Virus record (IMG/VR): IMGVR_UViG_3300025120_000656
Span: 1 to 21,651 of that record
Origin: a virus
Strand: one strand, 5' to 3'
DNA length: 21,651 nucleotides
A program made the position numbers and the translations under genes. Shown piece by piece: positions 4,774 to 15,160 of the stretch. Each line of letters begins with the position of its first letter. Within the stretch, counting starts at the first letter, position 1. The notes under the pieces were generated by a model. The model saw only the letters and a program-made list of their open reading frames with translations, did not search any database and was not told the DNA's origin.

Positions 4774-6288
4774 CTAATAATAATCTGCTTGTACGGGGAC
4801 AAAGGAACCATCATCATCTTCATCGCTTGATAACTTTACAAAACCACCTTGTCTAAACCTTAGTATTGCCTGAGTACATGAATCAACAAGATCATCGTGA
4901 TCTCCAGAAGGAAAAGCAGCAAATTGTTCAACCACCTCGTCAGCCCATTTTGTTTCAGGACACCATATAGCACCTGATGCAAAAAGATCAGATACTGCGT
5001 TCACTCTGGATATCTTATCATTTCCTCGGCTTGGAGTAAACTCACTTACAGGAATACCCATAACACGCAATTCTTGGATCAAAGAATGACCAGATGCCTT
5101 GGCTTCTACAATAAAAGCATCAGGATGCCATTCATGGTAATAATCAAAAGCCACACGTTTTAAATCTGGAAACTCGTATCTATCTTGAAAAGCATCTAAA
5201 AGAATAAGTTCGTAGTTATTATTATTGCGTTCATTGATAAAAACACCCCAGGTTGTACATGCTGAGAAGTCACTACGTTCTTTTCTTGTAAAAGCAGTAT
5301 CCCATGATTGGATAACAAACTCATATGGAGGAGGGATATCACTATCCCATTTTTTCCACCATTCCCTTTTAATAATAGCACCTTCTTCTGAAGTGGGATT
5401 TTGTTGATACTGAGCTTGCCATTTACTAACAGGAAGATCTGTCCTTAATGCTTGTAACTCGTTAATATCCCAAAACTCCCCCCATAGAGGTTTGTCATTA
5501 GGCATGATCGCAGGAAACTCGATTAACTCCCAGCCTTCAGATTTTATATTTTCTATTGAGTTCTTAATTAACTTTCCAGTTAAATCTCTTTTGTGCCAAC
5601 GAGTCATCACTATGCAAATAGCTCCACCAGGTTGGAGTCTCTGTCTTGGACCTGATGTATACCACTCATGCACCTTATCAAAAACTTCAGGACTATACGC
5701 TCCTGCTTGTGCTTCTTGTTCCGAATGAGGATCATCAATAATAAGAAGATCCGCACCCTTACCTGTTACAGCACCGCCAACTCCGATAGAAAAATAATCA
5801 CCGCCTTTATTTGTGTTCCATCTCCCAGCAGCTTTTGAATCAGATCTCAATTGAACATCTGGAAAAATTTCAGTAAAGATTTCATCTTGGAAAAGATTAC
5901 GAACCTTCCTGCCAAATCCCGTAGCCAGCTCCGCAGTATGTGCCGTTTGAATAATTTTCTTTTCTGGATATTTCCCCAGGAACCATGCTGGGAAAAGATA
6001 AGAAGCAAATTCAGATTTAGTATGACGAGGAGGCATATTAATAATTAATCTTTTTAATTCCCCCTTAGCAATTCTTTCAAAAGCATTTGCCATAATTTTA
6101 TGATGCCGACCTTCAATAAAAGAAGTCCAAACAGAATTAACAAAATGCATAAAATCTTCTTGAGCTTTTTCCCTATTTTCTTTTTCTTTTAATAAATCGA
6201 CAATCTGAAGAGTTTCTTCAATAAGATCTTTATTCTTAGAGTTAGCTTTTGCAATAATATCAAAAGGATCAACTGAATTTTTTCTCAT
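4774..6288 (-). CDS. terL: Terminase large subunit, ATPase and nuclease (504 aa)
   Basis: The packaging motor that cuts concatemeric DNA and pumps it through the portal. From the preferred ATG: the ATPase domain has a Walker A-type loop (MPPRHTKSE, about 85-93) and Walker B (LLIIDDPHSEQ, about 181-191), with VMTRWHKRDLTG as a further ATPase motif. The C-terminal RNase H-like nuclease has the expected acidic residues in SWDTAF (about D330), FIVEAKASG (about E395) and GDHDDLVDS (about D465/D466). I prefer the ATG at 6288 because it overlaps the stop of the methyltransferase-like gene as ATGA; an in-frame TTG at 6297 would add three residues. Family: Terminase_6 with 6C nuclease domain. Confidence 0.95.
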   Translation of the reverse strand: MRKNSVDPFDIIAKANSKNKDLIEETLQIVDLLKEKENREKAQEDFMHFVNSVWTSFIEGRHHKIMANAFERIAKGELKRLIINMPPRHTKSEFASYLFPAWFLGKYPEKKIIQTAHTAELATGFGRKVRNLFQDEIFTEIFPDVQLRSDSKAAGRWNTNKGGDYFSIGVGGAVTGKGADLLIIDDPHSEQEAQAGAYSPEVFDKVHEWYTSGPRQRLQPGGAICIVMTRWHKRDLTGKLIKNSIENIKSEGWELIEFPAIMPNDKPLWGEFWDINELQALRTDLPVSKWQAQYQQNPTSEEGAIIKREWWKKWDSDIPPPYEFVIQSWDTAFTRKERSDFSACTTWGVFINERNNNNYELILLDAFQDRYEFPDLKRVAFDYYHEWHPDAFIVEAKASGHSLIQELRVMGIPVSEFTPSRGNDKISRVNAVSDLFASGAIWCPETKWADEVVEQFAAFPSGDHDDLVDSCTQAILRFRQGGFVKLSSDEDDDGSFVPVQADYY

Positions 6289-6809
6289 ATAATCCAACGT
6301 ATAACAGGTTTGTTTTCTAATTTAGAATTATTCCAAACAATCCAACAATAATCTGTACTTCCTTTTCCAAGTTTTATAGGTGTCCCTCCTGGTGGCATAG
6401 AGGGTCTGTGCGACATAATAAGAACTTCATCTACAGGAGTGTAGCGAAAGAAGTCAAATCTTTTTAAAGATGCTAAAAAACCTAACGGAACAATAACGGC
6501 AATTTTATTTTGCACATGTTTAAGGGCATGGGTAACAATATTAACTGTTATTCTATACGGAGGGTTTGTAATTATGTTTTCTCTTTTTGTTTTATCTTTT
6601 AAAAAATCAACAACGGGATATCGACCTTCCGATCTATCGACAAGATCAGATCCTGTGCCACCCGTAATTTTTGGAATATTTCCCTGACCACAACACGGAT
6701 CATGTATATCCCCATCAAAGCTAACACTATCCATCAAAGCATCGACACAAAAAGCTGGCTCGACATACCAATCATTAACGACCCTTTTAAATTTAGCATT
6801 TACATTCAT
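6285..6809 (-). CDS. Short SAM-dependent DNA adenine methyltransferase-like protein (174 aa)
   Basis: Two signature motifs of amino-methyltransferases are present: the SAM-binding motif I as DPCCGQGNI (37-45) and the catalytic motif IV as TNPPY (81-85). Strands and helices after motif IV (IAVIVPLGFLASLKRF, then STDYCWIVW) fit the rest of the Rossmann-like core. At 174 residues it is shorter than usual phage Dam-type enzymes and shows no clear target-recognition domain, so it may modify DNA with low specificity or need a partner. The order is motif I then IV. It is coupled to terL (ATGA overlap) and preceded by AAAGGA. Possible role: protecting phage DNA from restriction or marking DNA for packaging (inference). 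Confidence 0.75.
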   Translation of the reverse strand: MNVNAKFKRVVNDWYVEPAFCVDALMDSVSFDGDIHDPCCGQGNIPKITGGTGSDLVDRSEGRYPVVDFLKDKTKRENIITNPPYRITVNIVTHALKHVQNKIAVIVPLGFLASLKRFDFFRYTPVDEVLIMSHRPSMPPGGTPIKLGKGSTDYCWIVWNNSKLENKPVIRWII

Positions 6810-7802: not shown

Positions 7803-8318
7803 CTACCCTGCCGTTTTCATTATCTCCTGCAATCTTATTGCCAGCTCTTCACGTAGTTCCGCAGTGGTCTTATCATTGTTAGAGTTAATGTTGATCGTAT
7901 CCTCAAGTGCACCAGACGCTTTTGCGAGTAGCTCCAATGCTCGAATGCGGGAGCTAGAATTAGATGTCGGGCTTGAGGGGTCAGTGAGTATGCTTTCCGC
8001 TTCAAGCCTCTCTAGGATCTGTTCTCGTCTTGAGTGGGTCAGACGCTGTGTATCCCTATCTTTTTGACGTTTATGCTTATCTATCATCGGGGCGATATCG
8101 GGGTGACTTACTAGCCTATACGCTTCATTGCTAATGCTTTTTGCACTCATGCCTTTAGCGTTATAAACTATTTTGTACGCTTCAGATCCGCTTATAGCTT
8201 CCCCATCCTCCCCATACACATATACCCTTGCAAACTCCTCTTGCTTGTTTGTTAGCTTCCTGCCTGCCTTCTTAATTGGTTTAAGACTAACCACCTTGTT
8301 GCTTTTTGTATCAGTCAT
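7803..8318 (-). CDS. terS: Terminase small subunit (171 aa)
   Basis: Small terminases recognise phage DNA and hand it to the large subunit. The N-terminal third (about 20-80) has the Terminase_2-type DNA-binding pattern: LTNKQEEFARVYV, GSEAYKIVY, then SISNEAYRLVSHPDIAPMI. A helical middle (ILERLEAESILTD), a segment SSRIRALELLAKASGAL typical of this family, and a final helix (ELREELAIRLQEIMK) would form the oligomer core and the TerL-binding tail. Length is normal. The ATG at 8318 has GAGG upstream. Unusually, it is separated from terL by a 620-bp gap and two genes, and it is the first gene of the leftward late module. Confidence 0.88.
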   Translation of the reverse strand: MTDTKSNKVVSLKPIKKAGRKLTNKQEEFARVYVYGEDGEAISGSEAYKIVYNAKGMSAKSISNEAYRLVSHPDIAPMIDKHKRQKDRDTQRLTHSRREQILERLEAESILTDPSSPTSNSSSRIRALELLAKASGALEDTININSNNDKTTAELREELAIRLQEIMKTAG

Positions 8319-9182: not shown

Positions 9183-9428
9183 ATGACTAATATAAACGAT
9201 AGCGGAGAAATGATTCTTGATCTAAAAACTAAAATTTTAATCCTAAGAGCAAGAGATTTTGCAGAAAAAAACCTTACCAAGGTGGGTATGGCTACGCTTT
9301 TAGATTACAACGATAATGATGACTGGGCAAAATTTATAAAGTTTAATTGTTGTGACAACTGGAGAGAACTAAAAGAAAGCATGTTGCACACTGCCAAGGT
9401 TATAGAAAGGGGAAGAGATTATGACTAA
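9183..9428 (+). CDS. Early protein of unknown function (81 aa)
   Basis: An 81-residue soluble protein, largely helical, with a mid segment DYNDNDDWAKFIKFNCCDNW and a charged C-terminus. The ATG at 9183 has AGGAG 6 nt upstream. The 3' end overlaps the next gene by 8 nt. It belongs to the short operon that ends with the ArdC-like gene. No domain is recognised. Position next to an anti-restriction gene makes a host-takeover or anti-defence role plausible but unproven. Confidence 0.7.
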   Translation: MTNINDSGEMILDLKTKILILRARDFAEKNLTKVGMATLLDYNDNDDWAKFIKFNCCDNWRELKESMLHTAKVIERGRDYD

Positions 9429-9681
9429 CGTATGGATTTTAGAAAAAAGAAACAATCAACCAGACATATTTTATCAAACCACTAAAGAGGATTTCACAGT
9501 ATTCACAGCCGCCGAAATGGATTTTTCGGTGTGGAATGTTGAGAACGACAGACACTTAGAGAAAGATAAGGATGAGACAACTTTAACTTTCGCAGACGCT
9601 GTGGAATATGCAGACCAATGCATAGGTTCAGTTCATGTGTTTAATTCACGTAAACAACTTAACAAATTCAGAGGGGAATAA
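9421..9681 (+). CDS. Early acidic protein of unknown function (86 aa)
   Basis: An 86-residue, net acidic protein (about 16 acidic against 10 basic residues), predicted to be strand-rich at the N-terminus (VWILEKR, then DFTVFTAAEMDFSVWNV) with a helix around TFADAVEYADQC. The ATG has a GGGGAAGAG ribosome binding site and overlaps the preceding gene by 8 nt. The next gene (ArdC-like) starts 2 nt after its stop. No known family is recognised. Co-expression with ArdC is seen; an anti-defence role is inference. Confidence 0.7.
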   Translation: MTNVWILEKRNNQPDIFYQTTKEDFTVFTAAEMDFSVWNVENDRHLEKDKDETTLTFADAVEYADQCIGSVHVFNSRKQLNKFRGE

Positions 9682-9683
9682 TT

Positions 9684-10634
9684 ATGGGTAAGTTCAAAAG
9701 TAAGAAACGTGACATAGATCAAGAAAGTTCTGATTTATTTTTAGAGGAATTGCAAGCATCAATGGCTGATGCCAAGGCTCAGGGTGAAACTTGGGAAAAA
9801 CCTTGGTTCACTGTTTCGGTGGAGGCTCCGACATCTGGTTCAACAGGTAAAGAATACAAGGGCATGAACTGGTGGAACCTTAACTTGATAGCCAACAGGT
9901 ACGGCTGGCAGGGTCAATGGATCACAGGCAAAAATGCTATGGACAGGGGGTGGATCTTGAAAGGCAAGAAGTCAGAGGCTTTTGTCTTTCAACCAAATTT
10001 GATACCTCAAAAGGAAGATTCTGAGGGTATCGTAACTCGCAAAGCCTTCACTATTTTCAAACCTATAGCGGTCTTCAACGAGAGCCAGTTTGATGAATTT
10101 GAAGCACCAGAACAACCCGACAGAGTTGACCTTGTGAAAATTTACGAGACAGCCGAGGATTTTGTAAAAAATACTGGGGCAATCATTAATAAATCACAGG
10201 GTTCAAGAGCCTTCTACAATGTCACTGGTCACGAAATCACAATACCTAAAACCGACATTTTCAAAGACACTTCAACGTCAACTGCTACTGAAAATTATTA
10301 CGGGACATTGTTTCACGAGCTAACGCATTGGACTCTTAAAGATCTCAAAAGAGATGAGTTTGTTGCCAAGATGTATCCAAATGGAGGTAAAAAATTTGGT
10401 TCGAAACGCTACGCTTTTGAGGAATTGGTTGCTGAAATCGGGGCGGCAATGTTGTGTCAAAAACTAAATATAAGCCAGTCAATTCGATCTGACCACGCAA
10501 AATATCTAAACTCTTGGGTTGAAGTAGTCAAGGAAGACAAGACAGTGCTACGCAAGGCTTGTACTCTCGCTCAGAAAGCAGTTGAACATCTGGTTTCATT
10601 TCAAGAGCAAGAGGAACTAGCAGAAGCGGCTTAG
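9684..10634 (+). CDS. ArdC-like anti-restriction protein with zinc metallopeptidase domain (316 aa)
   Basis: Two-domain layout of plasmid and phage ArdC proteins. The N-terminal domain (about 10-135; WEKPWF, GKEYKGMNWWNLNL, WITGKNAM, FKPIAVFN) matches the single-stranded-DNA-binding DUF1738 domain. The C-terminal domain (about 150-300) is a zincin-type peptidase with HELTH (211-215) and the third-ligand helix YAFEELVAEIGAAM (243-256, E246 or E251). ArdC proteins protect incoming DNA from host restriction enzymes. Ribosome binding site GAGGGG. It is the last gene before an intrinsic terminator (10641-10665), giving a compact operon expressed from the promoter at 8727. Full length with all metal ligands present. 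Confidence 0.9.
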   Translation: MGKFKSKKRDIDQESSDLFLEELQASMADAKAQGETWEKPWFTVSVEAPTSGSTGKEYKGMNWWNLNLIANRYGWQGQWITGKNAMDRGWILKGKKSEAFVFQPNLIPQKEDSEGIVTRKAFTIFKPIAVFNESQFDEFEAPEQPDRVDLVKIYETAEDFVKNTGAIINKSQGSRAFYNVTGHEITIPKTDIFKDTSTSTATENYYGTLFHELTHWTLKDLKRDEFVAKMYPNGGKKFGSKRYAFEELVAEIGAAMLCQKLNISQSIRSDHAKYLNSWVEVVKEDKTVLRKACTLAQKAVEHLVSFQEQEELAEAA

Positions 10635-12309: not shown

Positions 12310-12489
12310 ATGAATAACTTTAATAATTTAAGTGATGAGTTAAAACTATCAGTAGAGAGACTGGTTAACTCAGCATCTTCTATGGCAGGTCAGAGCCAAG
12401 TTTTAAAACATATGAAGGAAGATATAGATAGAATCGTAGAACGAAGGCGGCATGAGTCCCAATTAACTTTAAATCAGGAGGGGTATTGA
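12310..12489 (+). CDS. Small helical protein of unknown function (59 aa)
   Basis: A 59-residue polar protein predicted as helical throughout (LSDELKLSVERLVNSASS, then VLKHMKEDIDRIVERRRHES). AAAGGG lies about 10 nt upstream of the ATG at 12310. Its last codons contain the GGAGGGG ribosome binding site of the next gene, whose ATG follows its stop by 2 nt. No family recognised; a small coiled-coil adaptor is possible. Confidence 0.55.
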   Translation: MNNFNNLSDELKLSVERLVNSASSMAGQSQVLKHMKEDIDRIVERRRHESQLTLNQEGY

Positions 12490-12491
12490 CT

Positions 12492-12698
12492 ATGACATTC
12501 CAAACAGTTAGTGCCTCTCAAAATTATGAGGTGATGCAATGCACAAATTGCGAGGGGGAAGGGATGATAAAAACTTCAATCGGAGAAACCTATTGCCTAG
12601 AATGTTATGGAGTAGGTGAAGTGCTGACATCAAAGGGAAGGTTAAGAAAGTTCTTAGATACATTCGATATACCTAACAGATATAGTAAAGGATGGTAG
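12492..12698 (+). CDS. DnaJ-type zinc-finger protein (68 aa)
   Basis: Two CxxCxGxG motifs, the signature of the DnaJ cysteine-rich domain, occur at C17-C20 (CTNCEGEG) and C35-C38 (CLECYGVG). There is no J-domain, so the protein would not act as a full Hsp40; isolated modules of this type act as zinc-dependent protein-binding modules or thiol oxidoreductases in other systems. The ATG at 12492 is chosen over an in-frame TTG at 12486 because of GGAGGGG upstream. C-terminal tail of about 25 residues. Confidence 0.75.
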   Translation: MTFQTVSASQNYEVMQCTNCEGEGMIKTSIGETYCLECYGVGEVLTSKGRLRKFLDTFDIPNRYSKGW

Positions 12699-12700
12699 TT

Positions 12701-13135
12701 ATGAATTACGAATACAACGATGGTGGAAGAGCCGAAGCAGGGTTCAAAGGCGAGGCAGGAGATTGTGTTTGCAGAGCCATAGTTATAGCGTCAGGCAGAC
12801 CATATAAGGAAATCTATGATAGGTTAGCTGAAGGTAATGCAACGCAACGCAAAACAAAACGGATGAGCAAGCAGTCACGATCCGCTCGTAATGGAATTTA
12901 TACCACACGCAAGTGGTTTAAATCTTACATGATGGAATTGGGATTTACTTGGACTCCCACGATGCAGATCGGTTCGGGATGCAAGGTTCATCTTACATCA
13001 GGGGAGCTACCGAAAGGTCGATTAGTGTGTTCTGTTTCAAAGCATTATGTTTCTGTTATTGATGGGGTTATTCAAGATACTCACGACTGCTCACGAGAAG
13101 GGACACGATGCGTATATGGGTATTGGAAACTTTAG
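12701..13135 (+). CDS. Conserved phage protein, possible papain-like cysteine peptidase fold (144 aa)
   Basis: The N-terminal motif GDCVCRAIVIASGRPYKEIYDRL (20-42) and the C-terminal GRLVCSVSKHYVSVIDGVIQDTHDC (107-130) have the order Cys at a helix start, His on a strand (H115) and Asp/His after a beta hairpin (D126 or D129), as in papain/NlpC-like folds. A basic insert (TQRKTKRMSKQSR) lies between them. I recall this family in phage and bacterial genomes without an assigned activity. The ATG at 12701 is preferred to the ATG at 12692 because AAAGG lies at a usable distance only from the later one. Peptidase activity is inference. Confidence 0.6.
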   Translation: MNYEYNDGGRAEAGFKGEAGDCVCRAIVIASGRPYKEIYDRLAEGNATQRKTKRMSKQSRSARNGIYTTRKWFKSYMMELGFTWTPTMQIGSGCKVHLTSGELPKGRLVCSVSKHYVSVIDGVIQDTHDCSREGTRCVYGYWKL

Positions 13136-13148
13136 AAAGGGAAACACA

Positions 13149-13430
13149 ATGAGTAATTTAAAATATAAATGGTGGGACTTTCATAAGAAAAATCCACAGG
13201 TTTATGAACTTGTAGAACACTTTACATTTGAAGTTATCAAACGAGGTTTCAAAAATTACAGTATCAAATCTGTTTTTGAAAGGATCAGGTGGCATACTGA
13301 TGTCGAAACTACAGGTGTTAAGTTTAAGCTGTCGAACAATCACACAGCTTACTACGCAAGATTATTTATGGTTAAAAACCCAGATTATGAGGGTTTCTTT
13401 AGAACAAAACAAACGAGGGGTGATTTATAA
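13149..13430 (+). CDS. Conserved phage protein of unknown function (93 aa)
   Basis: The ATG at 13149 has AAAGGG upstream. The protein is aromatic and basic, with the pattern WWDFHKKNPQVYELVEHFTFEVI, SVFERIRWHT, then AYYARLFMVKNPDYEGFFRTK. I recall similar sequences as small conserved proteins in phages and some bacteria, without a known function. No metal-binding or membrane motif. It overlaps the next start by 1 nt (TAATG). Confidence 0.65.
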   Translation: MSNLKYKWWDFHKKNPQVYELVEHFTFEVIKRGFKNYSIKSVFERIRWHTDVETTGVKFKLSNNHTAYYARLFMVKNPDYEGFFRTKQTRGDL

Positions 13431-13570
13431 TGAAGATTGTATACGCTACATTTAAAATAATGATCGAGGATAATGCAGATATAGATGAGGTATCTGCTGA
13501 AGCAGAATATAATTTTAGACATGATGATATTGTAGCTACGGAATGGATAGCGACAGAAGAAACTAATTAG
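13430..13570 (+). CDS. Small acidic protein (46 aa)
   Basis: A 46-residue protein starting MKIVYATFKIMIED, strand-like at first, then an acidic helix (NADIDEVSAEAEYNF) and an acidic end (TEETN). The start overlaps the previous stop (TAATG), and GAGGGG lies about 9 nt upstream. A betaalphabeta-like pattern is possible, but no family is recognised. It is too short to be certain. Confidence 0.5.
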   Translation: MKIVYATFKIMIEDNADIDEVSAEAEYNFRHDDIVATEWIATEETN

Positions 13571-13608
13571 AATTATATATTTTTATTACAGAAAAGGGAG
13601 AAGTTATA

Positions 13609-14475
13609 ATGGATATTCAATACGTTGGGGAATATAAAAGAGGCAAGTACCACGGGCAGGGAACCTGCACTTATGCTAATGGTAACAAATATGTTGGTGA
13701 ATATGTATACGGCATGATGCATGGACATGGAACCTTCACTTTTTCTAATGGCAGTAAGTATATAGGTGAATTTAAAGACGGCAAATATCATGGGCAAGGA
13801 ACCTTCACTTTTACTAATGGCGAAAAGTATGTTGGTGAATATAAAAACAACAAACAAAACGGACAAGGAATACTTAAGTTAGCTGATGGTGACAAATACG
13901 TTGGGGAATTTAAAAAGAGTAAATTCTACGGGCTAGGAGTATTAACTTCTGCCGATGGCTCCCGATATGTGGGGCGGTGGAAAGACAACTTGTATCATGG
14001 TCAAGGAGCATTAACTATTGTCAATGGTGGCAATTATATTGGGGAATGGAAAGAAGGCAACCGACATGGTGAAGGAGTATTAACCTTTGTAGATGGTCGC
14101 AAATACGTAGGTAATTTTGCCAACAATTTATTTCATGCTGAGGGTACACTAACCTATCCAAATAAAACTAGTCGTGTAGGTCAATGGCACAAAGGTAAAT
14201 TTATAGAGCCAAAAGAAAAAATAGATACTGTAATGCCTGATGGTTTAAATAAATACACTTTTACTAAAGAAGTACTAGCACCTATATGGCTTTCAACTAC
14301 TGTGGTGGCGAACTCAATGAAGGAAGCCTTTGGTATCGGTGATAAACTAAAGTTAAATGATTTCACTATTACAAGTTTTGACTTAACTAATCCACAGCGG
14401 ATCACATCAGGGGTTGCAGAGTACAGCGAATATAATGTAATGATAAATGGAAAGGGGAATAAAGATGAAGTATAA
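13609..14475 (+). CDS. MORN-repeat protein with unrecognised C-terminal domain (288 aa)
   Basis: From residue 5 the protein consists of eight consecutive 23-residue MORN repeats (5-188) of the form YVGEYKxGKYHGQGTxTxxNGxK, with a ninth partial repeat at 189-204. Such repeats form an elongated beta sheet that in other proteins binds lipids or partner proteins. Residues about 205-288 (starting near KEKIDTVMPDGLN) form a different alpha/beta segment that I do not recognise. No signal peptide or membrane helix is seen, so it is probably cytoplasmic. GGGAG precedes the ATG. The final 11 nt overlap the next gene. MORN proteins are uncommon in phages; a role at the host membrane or in binding a host protein is inference. 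Confidence 0.85.
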   Translation: MDIQYVGEYKRGKYHGQGTCTYANGNKYVGEYVYGMMHGHGTFTFSNGSKYIGEFKDGKYHGQGTFTFTNGEKYVGEYKNNKQNGQGILKLADGDKYVGEFKKSKFYGLGVLTSADGSRYVGRWKDNLYHGQGALTIVNGGNYIGEWKEGNRHGEGVLTFVDGRKYVGNFANNLFHAEGTLTYPNKTSRVGQWHKGKFIEPKEKIDTVMPDGLNKYTFTKEVLAPIWLSTTVVANSMKEAFGIGDKLKLNDFTITSFDLTNPQRITSGVAEYSEYNVMINGKGNKDEV

Positions 14476-15160
14476 ATGCAATGCGTGTGGCAACACTGCT
14501 GTTGATGAACATGATGCGTGGTGTAAGTTTACAGTTGTGTCTGCAAAATCAGATATAATAAATCTAAGTTCAGAAACAAATAAATTCCTGGTGGATAAGT
14601 TTGGAGAGGGTTGCGTCTTAAAAAATGTTTCAACATTTGAGAACAAGCAGTTCTTGGTATGCAATAGTTGCAATACAATCGGACATGAAATAAAAACGAT
14701 AGCCTTGATGACCCCTGTTGATTGGGAGGAAGAGCCAGAGAATGAGGATGCGACTGACTTCAGAGACATTCAAAGCACTGTCACAAATGATGATCTGTCT
14801 ACATTAATAAATATTCGGAGCAATAATATTAAGATGTGTATTGCGGCTGTAACTCCTGAGATCCCTCAAGTTGATATACAAACAGTTGTTGTATCTAATT
14901 TAGATAAAATAAATCCAAGTTCATACGTCAAGGAAACAGACAGCATCAGTCTTTTATCTGATCTGTATACCAAAACTTGTAGACCTGTTGGATGGATTAG
15001 GGCTAAGGATTTCTTTCTTAATATAAATTGGGCTAATTTTTATTATAAAATAAGCACAGCTATTGCTAGTGGAGAAGGTAGTACTGAGTTAAATATATCT
15101 GAAGTTGCATCCTTTCCCGAAACTTATGAGGGAGAAGAGGTGGAAAATGATCTGCACTAA
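14465..15160 (+). CDS. Zinc-finger-containing protein of unknown function (231 aa)
   Basis: The ATG at 14465 is preferred because AAAGGGG lies 7-8 nt upstream; an in-frame ATG at 14447 is poorly placed. Cysteine pairs at C5/C8 (KCNACGN) and C66/C69 (VCNSCN), plus C20 and C50, suggest a zinc-binding N-terminal domain of about 75 residues. The rest (about 80-231) is soluble, acidic and mostly helical, with a stretch SYVKETDSISLLSDLYTKTC then GWIRAKDFFLNINW. No known family. It overlaps the MORN gene by 11 nt and the next zinc-ribbon gene by 14 nt. Confidence 0.65.
   Translation: MKYKCNACGNTAVDEHDAWCKFTVVSAKSDIINLSSETNKFLVDKFGEGCVLKNVSTFENKQFLVCNSCNTIGHEIKTIALMTPVDWEEEPENEDATDFRDIQSTVTNDDLSTLINIRSNNIKMCIAAVTPEIPQVDIQTVVVSNLDKINPSSYVKETDSISLLSDLYTKTCRPVGWIRAKDFFLNINWANFYYKISTAIASGEGSTELNISEVASFPETYEGEEVENDLH

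Follow-up and report, generated by a model that had tools for sequence, protein, structure and literature searches.

The window, meaning the whole 21,651-nucleotide stretch of DNA that was analysed, is a fragment of a tailed phage. Terminase, portal, and other packaging-side genes run leftward, and a series of accessory genes runs rightward, followed on its 3' side by genes for a primase-helicase, a PD-(D/E)XK exonuclease, and a Sak annealing protein. The portal gene was named from its position and from the annotation of its relatives (head-to-tail connecting protein) and had no Pfam match. Among annotated phages, the nearest TerL proteins were those of marine phage 023Pt_psg01 and Pelagibacter phage HTVC027P with 57 and 55% identity, respectively. 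A gene for a MORN-repeat protein belongs to the operon on the replication side, which is transcribed against the direction of the packaging and head genes, and the presence of terminase, portal, primase-helicase, and Sak genes in the same window identifies it as a phage gene. The following features were assigned around and within it:

9406-9686, plus strand: block with an 86-aa open reading frame (9421-9681), sharing 88.6% DNA identity with a block that lies close to MORN in marine phage contig L005
9684-10634, plus strand: ArdC-type anti-restriction protein of the same rightward series (PF18818, E=2.4e-34; PF08401, E=3.1e-9; phrog_7245, E=4.3e-58)
13430-13570, plus strand: 46-aa open reading frame of the MORN operon, its ATG overlapping the previous stop codon (read from the sequence; coding signal in frame)
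13594-13600, plus strand: Shine-Dalgarno-like AAGGGAG, 8 nt 5' of the MORN ATG (direct sequence reading)
13609-14475, plus strand: MORN-repeat protein gene, 288 aa, ATG start (open reading frame, Pfam, PHROGs, in-frame codon usage)
13621-14172, plus strand: eight 23-residue MORN units, residues 5-188 (motif starts, PF02493, AlphaFold2, Foldseek)
14173-14205, plus strand: partial ninth MORN unit RVGQWHKGKFI, residues 189-199, forming the strand pair that closes the array in the model
14203-14472, plus strand: C-terminal extension, residues 199-288, no detectable relatives (coding signal)
14465-15160, plus strand: orphan gene with a Cys-rich N-terminus, sharing 11 nt with the 3' end of the MORN gene (read from the sequence)

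The last of these genes is likely translationally coupled to the MORN gene. Elsewhere in the window, a 147-aa protein (12692-13135, phrog_3754) shared 51-61% identity with hypothetical proteins of Tunturi_5, Mx1, and Phosso, which are large phages of unrelated hosts. A leftward gene (6285-6809) encodes a protein of 174 aa whose DPCCGQGN and NPPY motifs resemble those of an adenine-N6 methyltransferase, with no Pfam match at E<=0.1, and a small zinc-finger-like protein (12489-12698) had weak anti-TRAP and DnaJ-type CXXCXGXG matches below the cut-off.

The motif [YR][VIL]G-x8-[GA]-x-G starts at residues 5, 28, 51, 74, 97, 120, 143, and 166 of the MORN protein with a spacing of exactly 23, while 20,000 shuffles of the protein yielded a mean of 0.017 and a maximum of 2 such motifs. 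Pfam MORN (PF02493) was matched in 8 stretches (E=1.3e-51, 169.9 bits against a cut-off of 22.5), a family characterised by tandem 23-residue units with GxG and Y-x-G-E-[WFY] motifs. Codon usage strongly favoured the MORN frame both across the repeats and in the C-terminus. The C-terminal 90 or so residues had a codon log-odds of +22 in this frame, while values for the five remaining frames ranged from -3 to -91, which identifies them as real coding sequence and not read-through. Motif spacing, Pfam, and codon usage therefore confirm the sequence-only description of eight MORN repeats with a partial ninth and a different C-terminal stretch. No domain other than MORN was found in Pfam or PHROGs, with no kinase, catalytic, or peptidoglycan-binding domain among the matches, and the PADLOC defence models gave no match up to E=1. 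As claimed earlier, the protein appears to have no signal peptide: no hydrophobic stretch reached signal-peptide or transmembrane length, the 19-residue Kyte-Doolittle mean peaking at 0.86, and nothing suggests export.

MORN repeats are best known from animal and parasite (eukaryotic) proteins. Modelling of the window protein by AlphaFold2 with 12 phage MORN proteins from other viral contigs aligned gave a continuous series of beta-hairpins over residues 1-200 with pLDDT mostly at 95-98. A run on the single sequence was uninformative (mean pLDDT 51, about 25 in the C-terminus, no significant BFVD match). In the predicted model, the units are hairpins stacked in a single sheet, as in the MORN fold, and Foldseek superimposed it on Toxoplasma MORN1 (6t6q) with 1.1 A over 200 columns, a TM score of 0.92 by target, and E=2.2e-21. 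A sequence search of solved structures likewise returned Toxoplasma MORN1 at 7.8e-51. The apicomplexan and trypanosomatid MORN1 proteins (6t6q, 6t69, 6t4d, 6t4r) are also all-MORN rods, with 38% identity over about 200 columns; however, they are longer and form antiparallel dimers via their C-terminal repeats, whereas the phage array ends in an extra segment. Foldseek matches also included the MORN4/Myo3a and junctophilin-2/CaV1.1 peptide complexes. The best viral structure matches were mainly giant-virus MORN proteins, a likeness of repeat type that is no evidence of common function.

The window protein belongs to the known phage MORN proteins (phrog_7324/PF02493) and carries an orphan extension. 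The phrog_7324 match covered the repeats with E=1.2e-37, while the 90-aa C-terminal extension matched no PHROG. This profile also matches L008, L020, and L012 and is therefore a general MORN profile, membership of which says little. A strict MORN DNA pattern was found in 30 stretches among 2.9 million contigs. MORN proteins were 37 times more frequent in long reads than in assemblies in a long-read marine study (PMC9238414), so their rarity in assembled contigs is partly an assembly effect. Two or three tandem MORN genes were observed in single viral contigs (L012:7110-9913 and L014:6048-8450).

Other marine phages carry the same repeat type fused to peptidoglycan-acting domains. The MORN arrays of L008:5880-8918 are joined to a tail lysozyme and PG_binding_1, and L010:75-3113 was assigned to the same type by its length and layout only. 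Fusions to PG_binding_1 alone occur in L022:6345-7067 and L031:6098-6970, while L002, L013, and L019 contain MORN arrays inside proteins of 1,200 to 3,000 aa. The fusions of L008, L022, and L031 are probably virion or lysis proteins, pointing to a possible cell-wall-related use of MORN, and MORN in phage endolysins has been reported (as cited in PMC9238414). These proteins are an argument for viewing the window protein as a lysis or entry protein stripped to its MORN module. However, none of the catalytic or peptidoglycan-binding domains of lysins and tail lysozymes was found in it, nor an export signal, and its gene runs with the replication side, away from the packaging and head genes, which makes a cell-wall or virion role rather unlikely. 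Given the variety of fusions and sizes, phage MORN proteins are not one functional family.

The sister contig L033/L139 is close to the window phage, with 76% identity in TerL and 71% in the portal protein. Its MORN protein (L006/L139) is 101 aa long, with ten residues beyond its five units, and the gene adjoins terS. A nearly identical 101-aa protein occurs in L003, and a 114-aa protein with five units in L004/L005, which overlap by 2082 bases with 14 mismatches. In these relatives just 4-10 residues follow the repeats, and the C-terminal extension is absent. Their genes occupy the variable region between the terminase and replication genes, as in the window phage, but differ from it in position and neighbours, the position changing from phage to phage. 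DNA identity between the MORN genes of the window and those of L003, L006/L139, and L004/L005 was 73-76% across the repeats and did not reach the C-terminal part. In L003 and L006, which are almost the same contig, the genes (2143-2448 and 7962-8267, respectively) differ at 4 sites, all non-synonymous, with 0 of 1439 bases differing upstream and 7 of 1872 downstream. Repeat recombination or errors of short-read assembly may account for this difference, which was not counted as evidence.

A MORN gene was found in one of 40 TerL-clade records searched, that of the sister, a rough lower bound as many of the records are fragments. The earlier description of MORN as unusual in a phage accessory operon is borne out: MORN genes are scarce among phages, and this one belongs to an accessory operon. 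Among 50,697 phage records, no significant relative (E<=1e-5) was detected save a MORN gene in Streptococcus phage Javan141. That gene lies at the record end beside RuvB and phosphatase genes, off the integrase side, and was rejected as a phage gene because it is probably host chromosome.

Residues 199-288 had no match in Pfam, PHROGs, the 50,697 phage records, or the scans of viral and genome contigs, and no homologue was found among the open reading frames of the collected MORN loci. Candidate matches were rejected: two genome-contig hits of 15 residues lay antisense to a flavin-oxidoreductase-like gene and were ascribed to chance, as was a GroEL match at E of about 10 in the phage search (E<=10), and a DpnD/PcfM-like small phage domain was not returned by Pfam at a cut-off as loose as E<=10. 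The AlphaFold2 model gave this part a pLDDT of about 40-50, with residues 213-288 below 50 and no confident fold; since no homologue of it was in the alignment, this is uninformative on whether the segment folds.

These results bear on the two-part effector proposed from the sequence, in which the MORN array would localise the protein and the C-terminal 90 residues would be directed at a host target. In favour of this, the C-terminus is coding and unlike the array in composition (pI 4.8 vs about 9.4), and may represent a new domain in its own right. The effector idea nevertheless loses its main support, since the closest phage relatives are MORN arrays alone and none of the phage relatives found has the C-terminal part. 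Together with the lack of any family or homologue in the searched collections and the low-confidence, unaligned model, this renders the reading quite improbable. Absence of a conserved C-terminus, against which the sequence-only reading had staked its effector, is largely what the relatives show. So far, the C-terminus appears private to this phage and the MORN array the recurrent part; the 90 residues are, as far as these comparisons go, a phage-specific add-on and not a conserved effector.

Action at the inner membrane, also suggested earlier, would accord with the name and history of MORN repeats and with the basic array. TbMORN1, the MORN-only protein studied in most depth, bound single phospholipids and co-purified with phosphatidylethanolamine from E. 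coli; however, neither in vitro nor in vivo did it bind membranes or vesicles (PMC7725318). The window protein has no hydrophobic segment, and no membrane-targeting features of the junctophilin or PIP5K type (transmembrane anchor, lipid kinase domain) were found beside its array. The net charge of phage MORN arrays ranges from strongly acidic to strongly basic, which also speaks against this reading. A membrane- or lipid-binding protein is thus very doubtful, and the claim gained no support.

The MORN units diverge by up to about half their bases, with Gly and Tyr kept while third bases vary. Among units 1-7, pS was 0.55 and pN 0.32, a crude measure as it was taken between repeats of one gene; the codons of the conserved Gly and Tyr residues vary synonymously. 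This fits an old array, its repeats apparently held by protein-level selection. A host- or phage-derived repeat gene decaying or drifting without function would fit the rarity and positional instability of MORN in the clade and the loss of consensus residues in unit 8, but is distinctly unlikely in view of the full open reading frame, the good Shine-Dalgarno sequence, the tight operon packing, the in-frame codon usage throughout, and the conserved Gly and Tyr with synonymous drift.

The surroundings of the gene may hint at anti-restriction functions. In L005, the MORN gene is divergent from genes for the 86-aa protein and ArdC, past which lies a DNA modification gene of the Mom family (PF25680, E=1.3e-42 in the L005/L004 lineage), while in L004 a DNA methyltransferase gene lies farther along (PF01555, E=3.3e-53). 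The 86-aa protein of the window is 94% identical to that of L005, and the DNA identity is limited to 281 bases. As this block is so similar although TerL and ArdC share 54 and 29% identity, respectively, it points to a recent exchange between the window phage and that of L005. An exact-peptide search of viral contigs found no other copies of the protein. MORN thus shares its variable region with anti-restriction genes in two lineages, the window (ArdC) and L004/L005 (ArdC, Mom, methyltransferase); no recognised anti-restriction gene was found near MORN in L139. With two lineages and gene-dense variable regions, chance is possible, and the association is suggestive only.

Structural work has shown that MORN1 proteins dimerise and has argued that MORN units are protein-interaction modules (PMC7725318). 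Together with the family assignment and the MORN1 fold match, this makes a protein-binding scaffold the likeliest role. We infer intracellular action, protein binding, and counter-defence, and tentatively propose, at somewhat less than an even chance and by analogy with these systems, that the gene encodes an intracellular accessory protein whose MORN scaffold serves perhaps in counter-defence or host takeover. The protein would be made inside the infected cell with the array as its working part. The eight stacked hairpins would form one long basic sheet whose stacked aromatic side chains face protein-protein contacts. Through it the array would most likely bind a host protein, or else one of the phage, as an adaptor or a sequestering scaffold or decoy in takeover or counter-defence. 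By analogy with eukaryotic MORN1, a dimer through the last repeats is possible, and the C-terminal 90 residues may alter partner choice or the oligomer state. Counter-defence is the favoured setting for this scaffold, but unproven. A more specific version, in which a marine phage group carries the MORN recognition sheet with ArdC, Mom, and methyltransferase genes for counter-defence or takeover and a 90-residue domain of new fold sets the target, is unlikely.

To our knowledge, almost no function has been assigned to MORN repeats in bacteria or phages. The nearly empty result from the 50,697 phage records suggests that cultured phages have largely missed this MORN group. The short MORN-only proteins of marine phages would form a compact group of expressible proteins with which to ask what binds to a MORN sheet inside bacteria.
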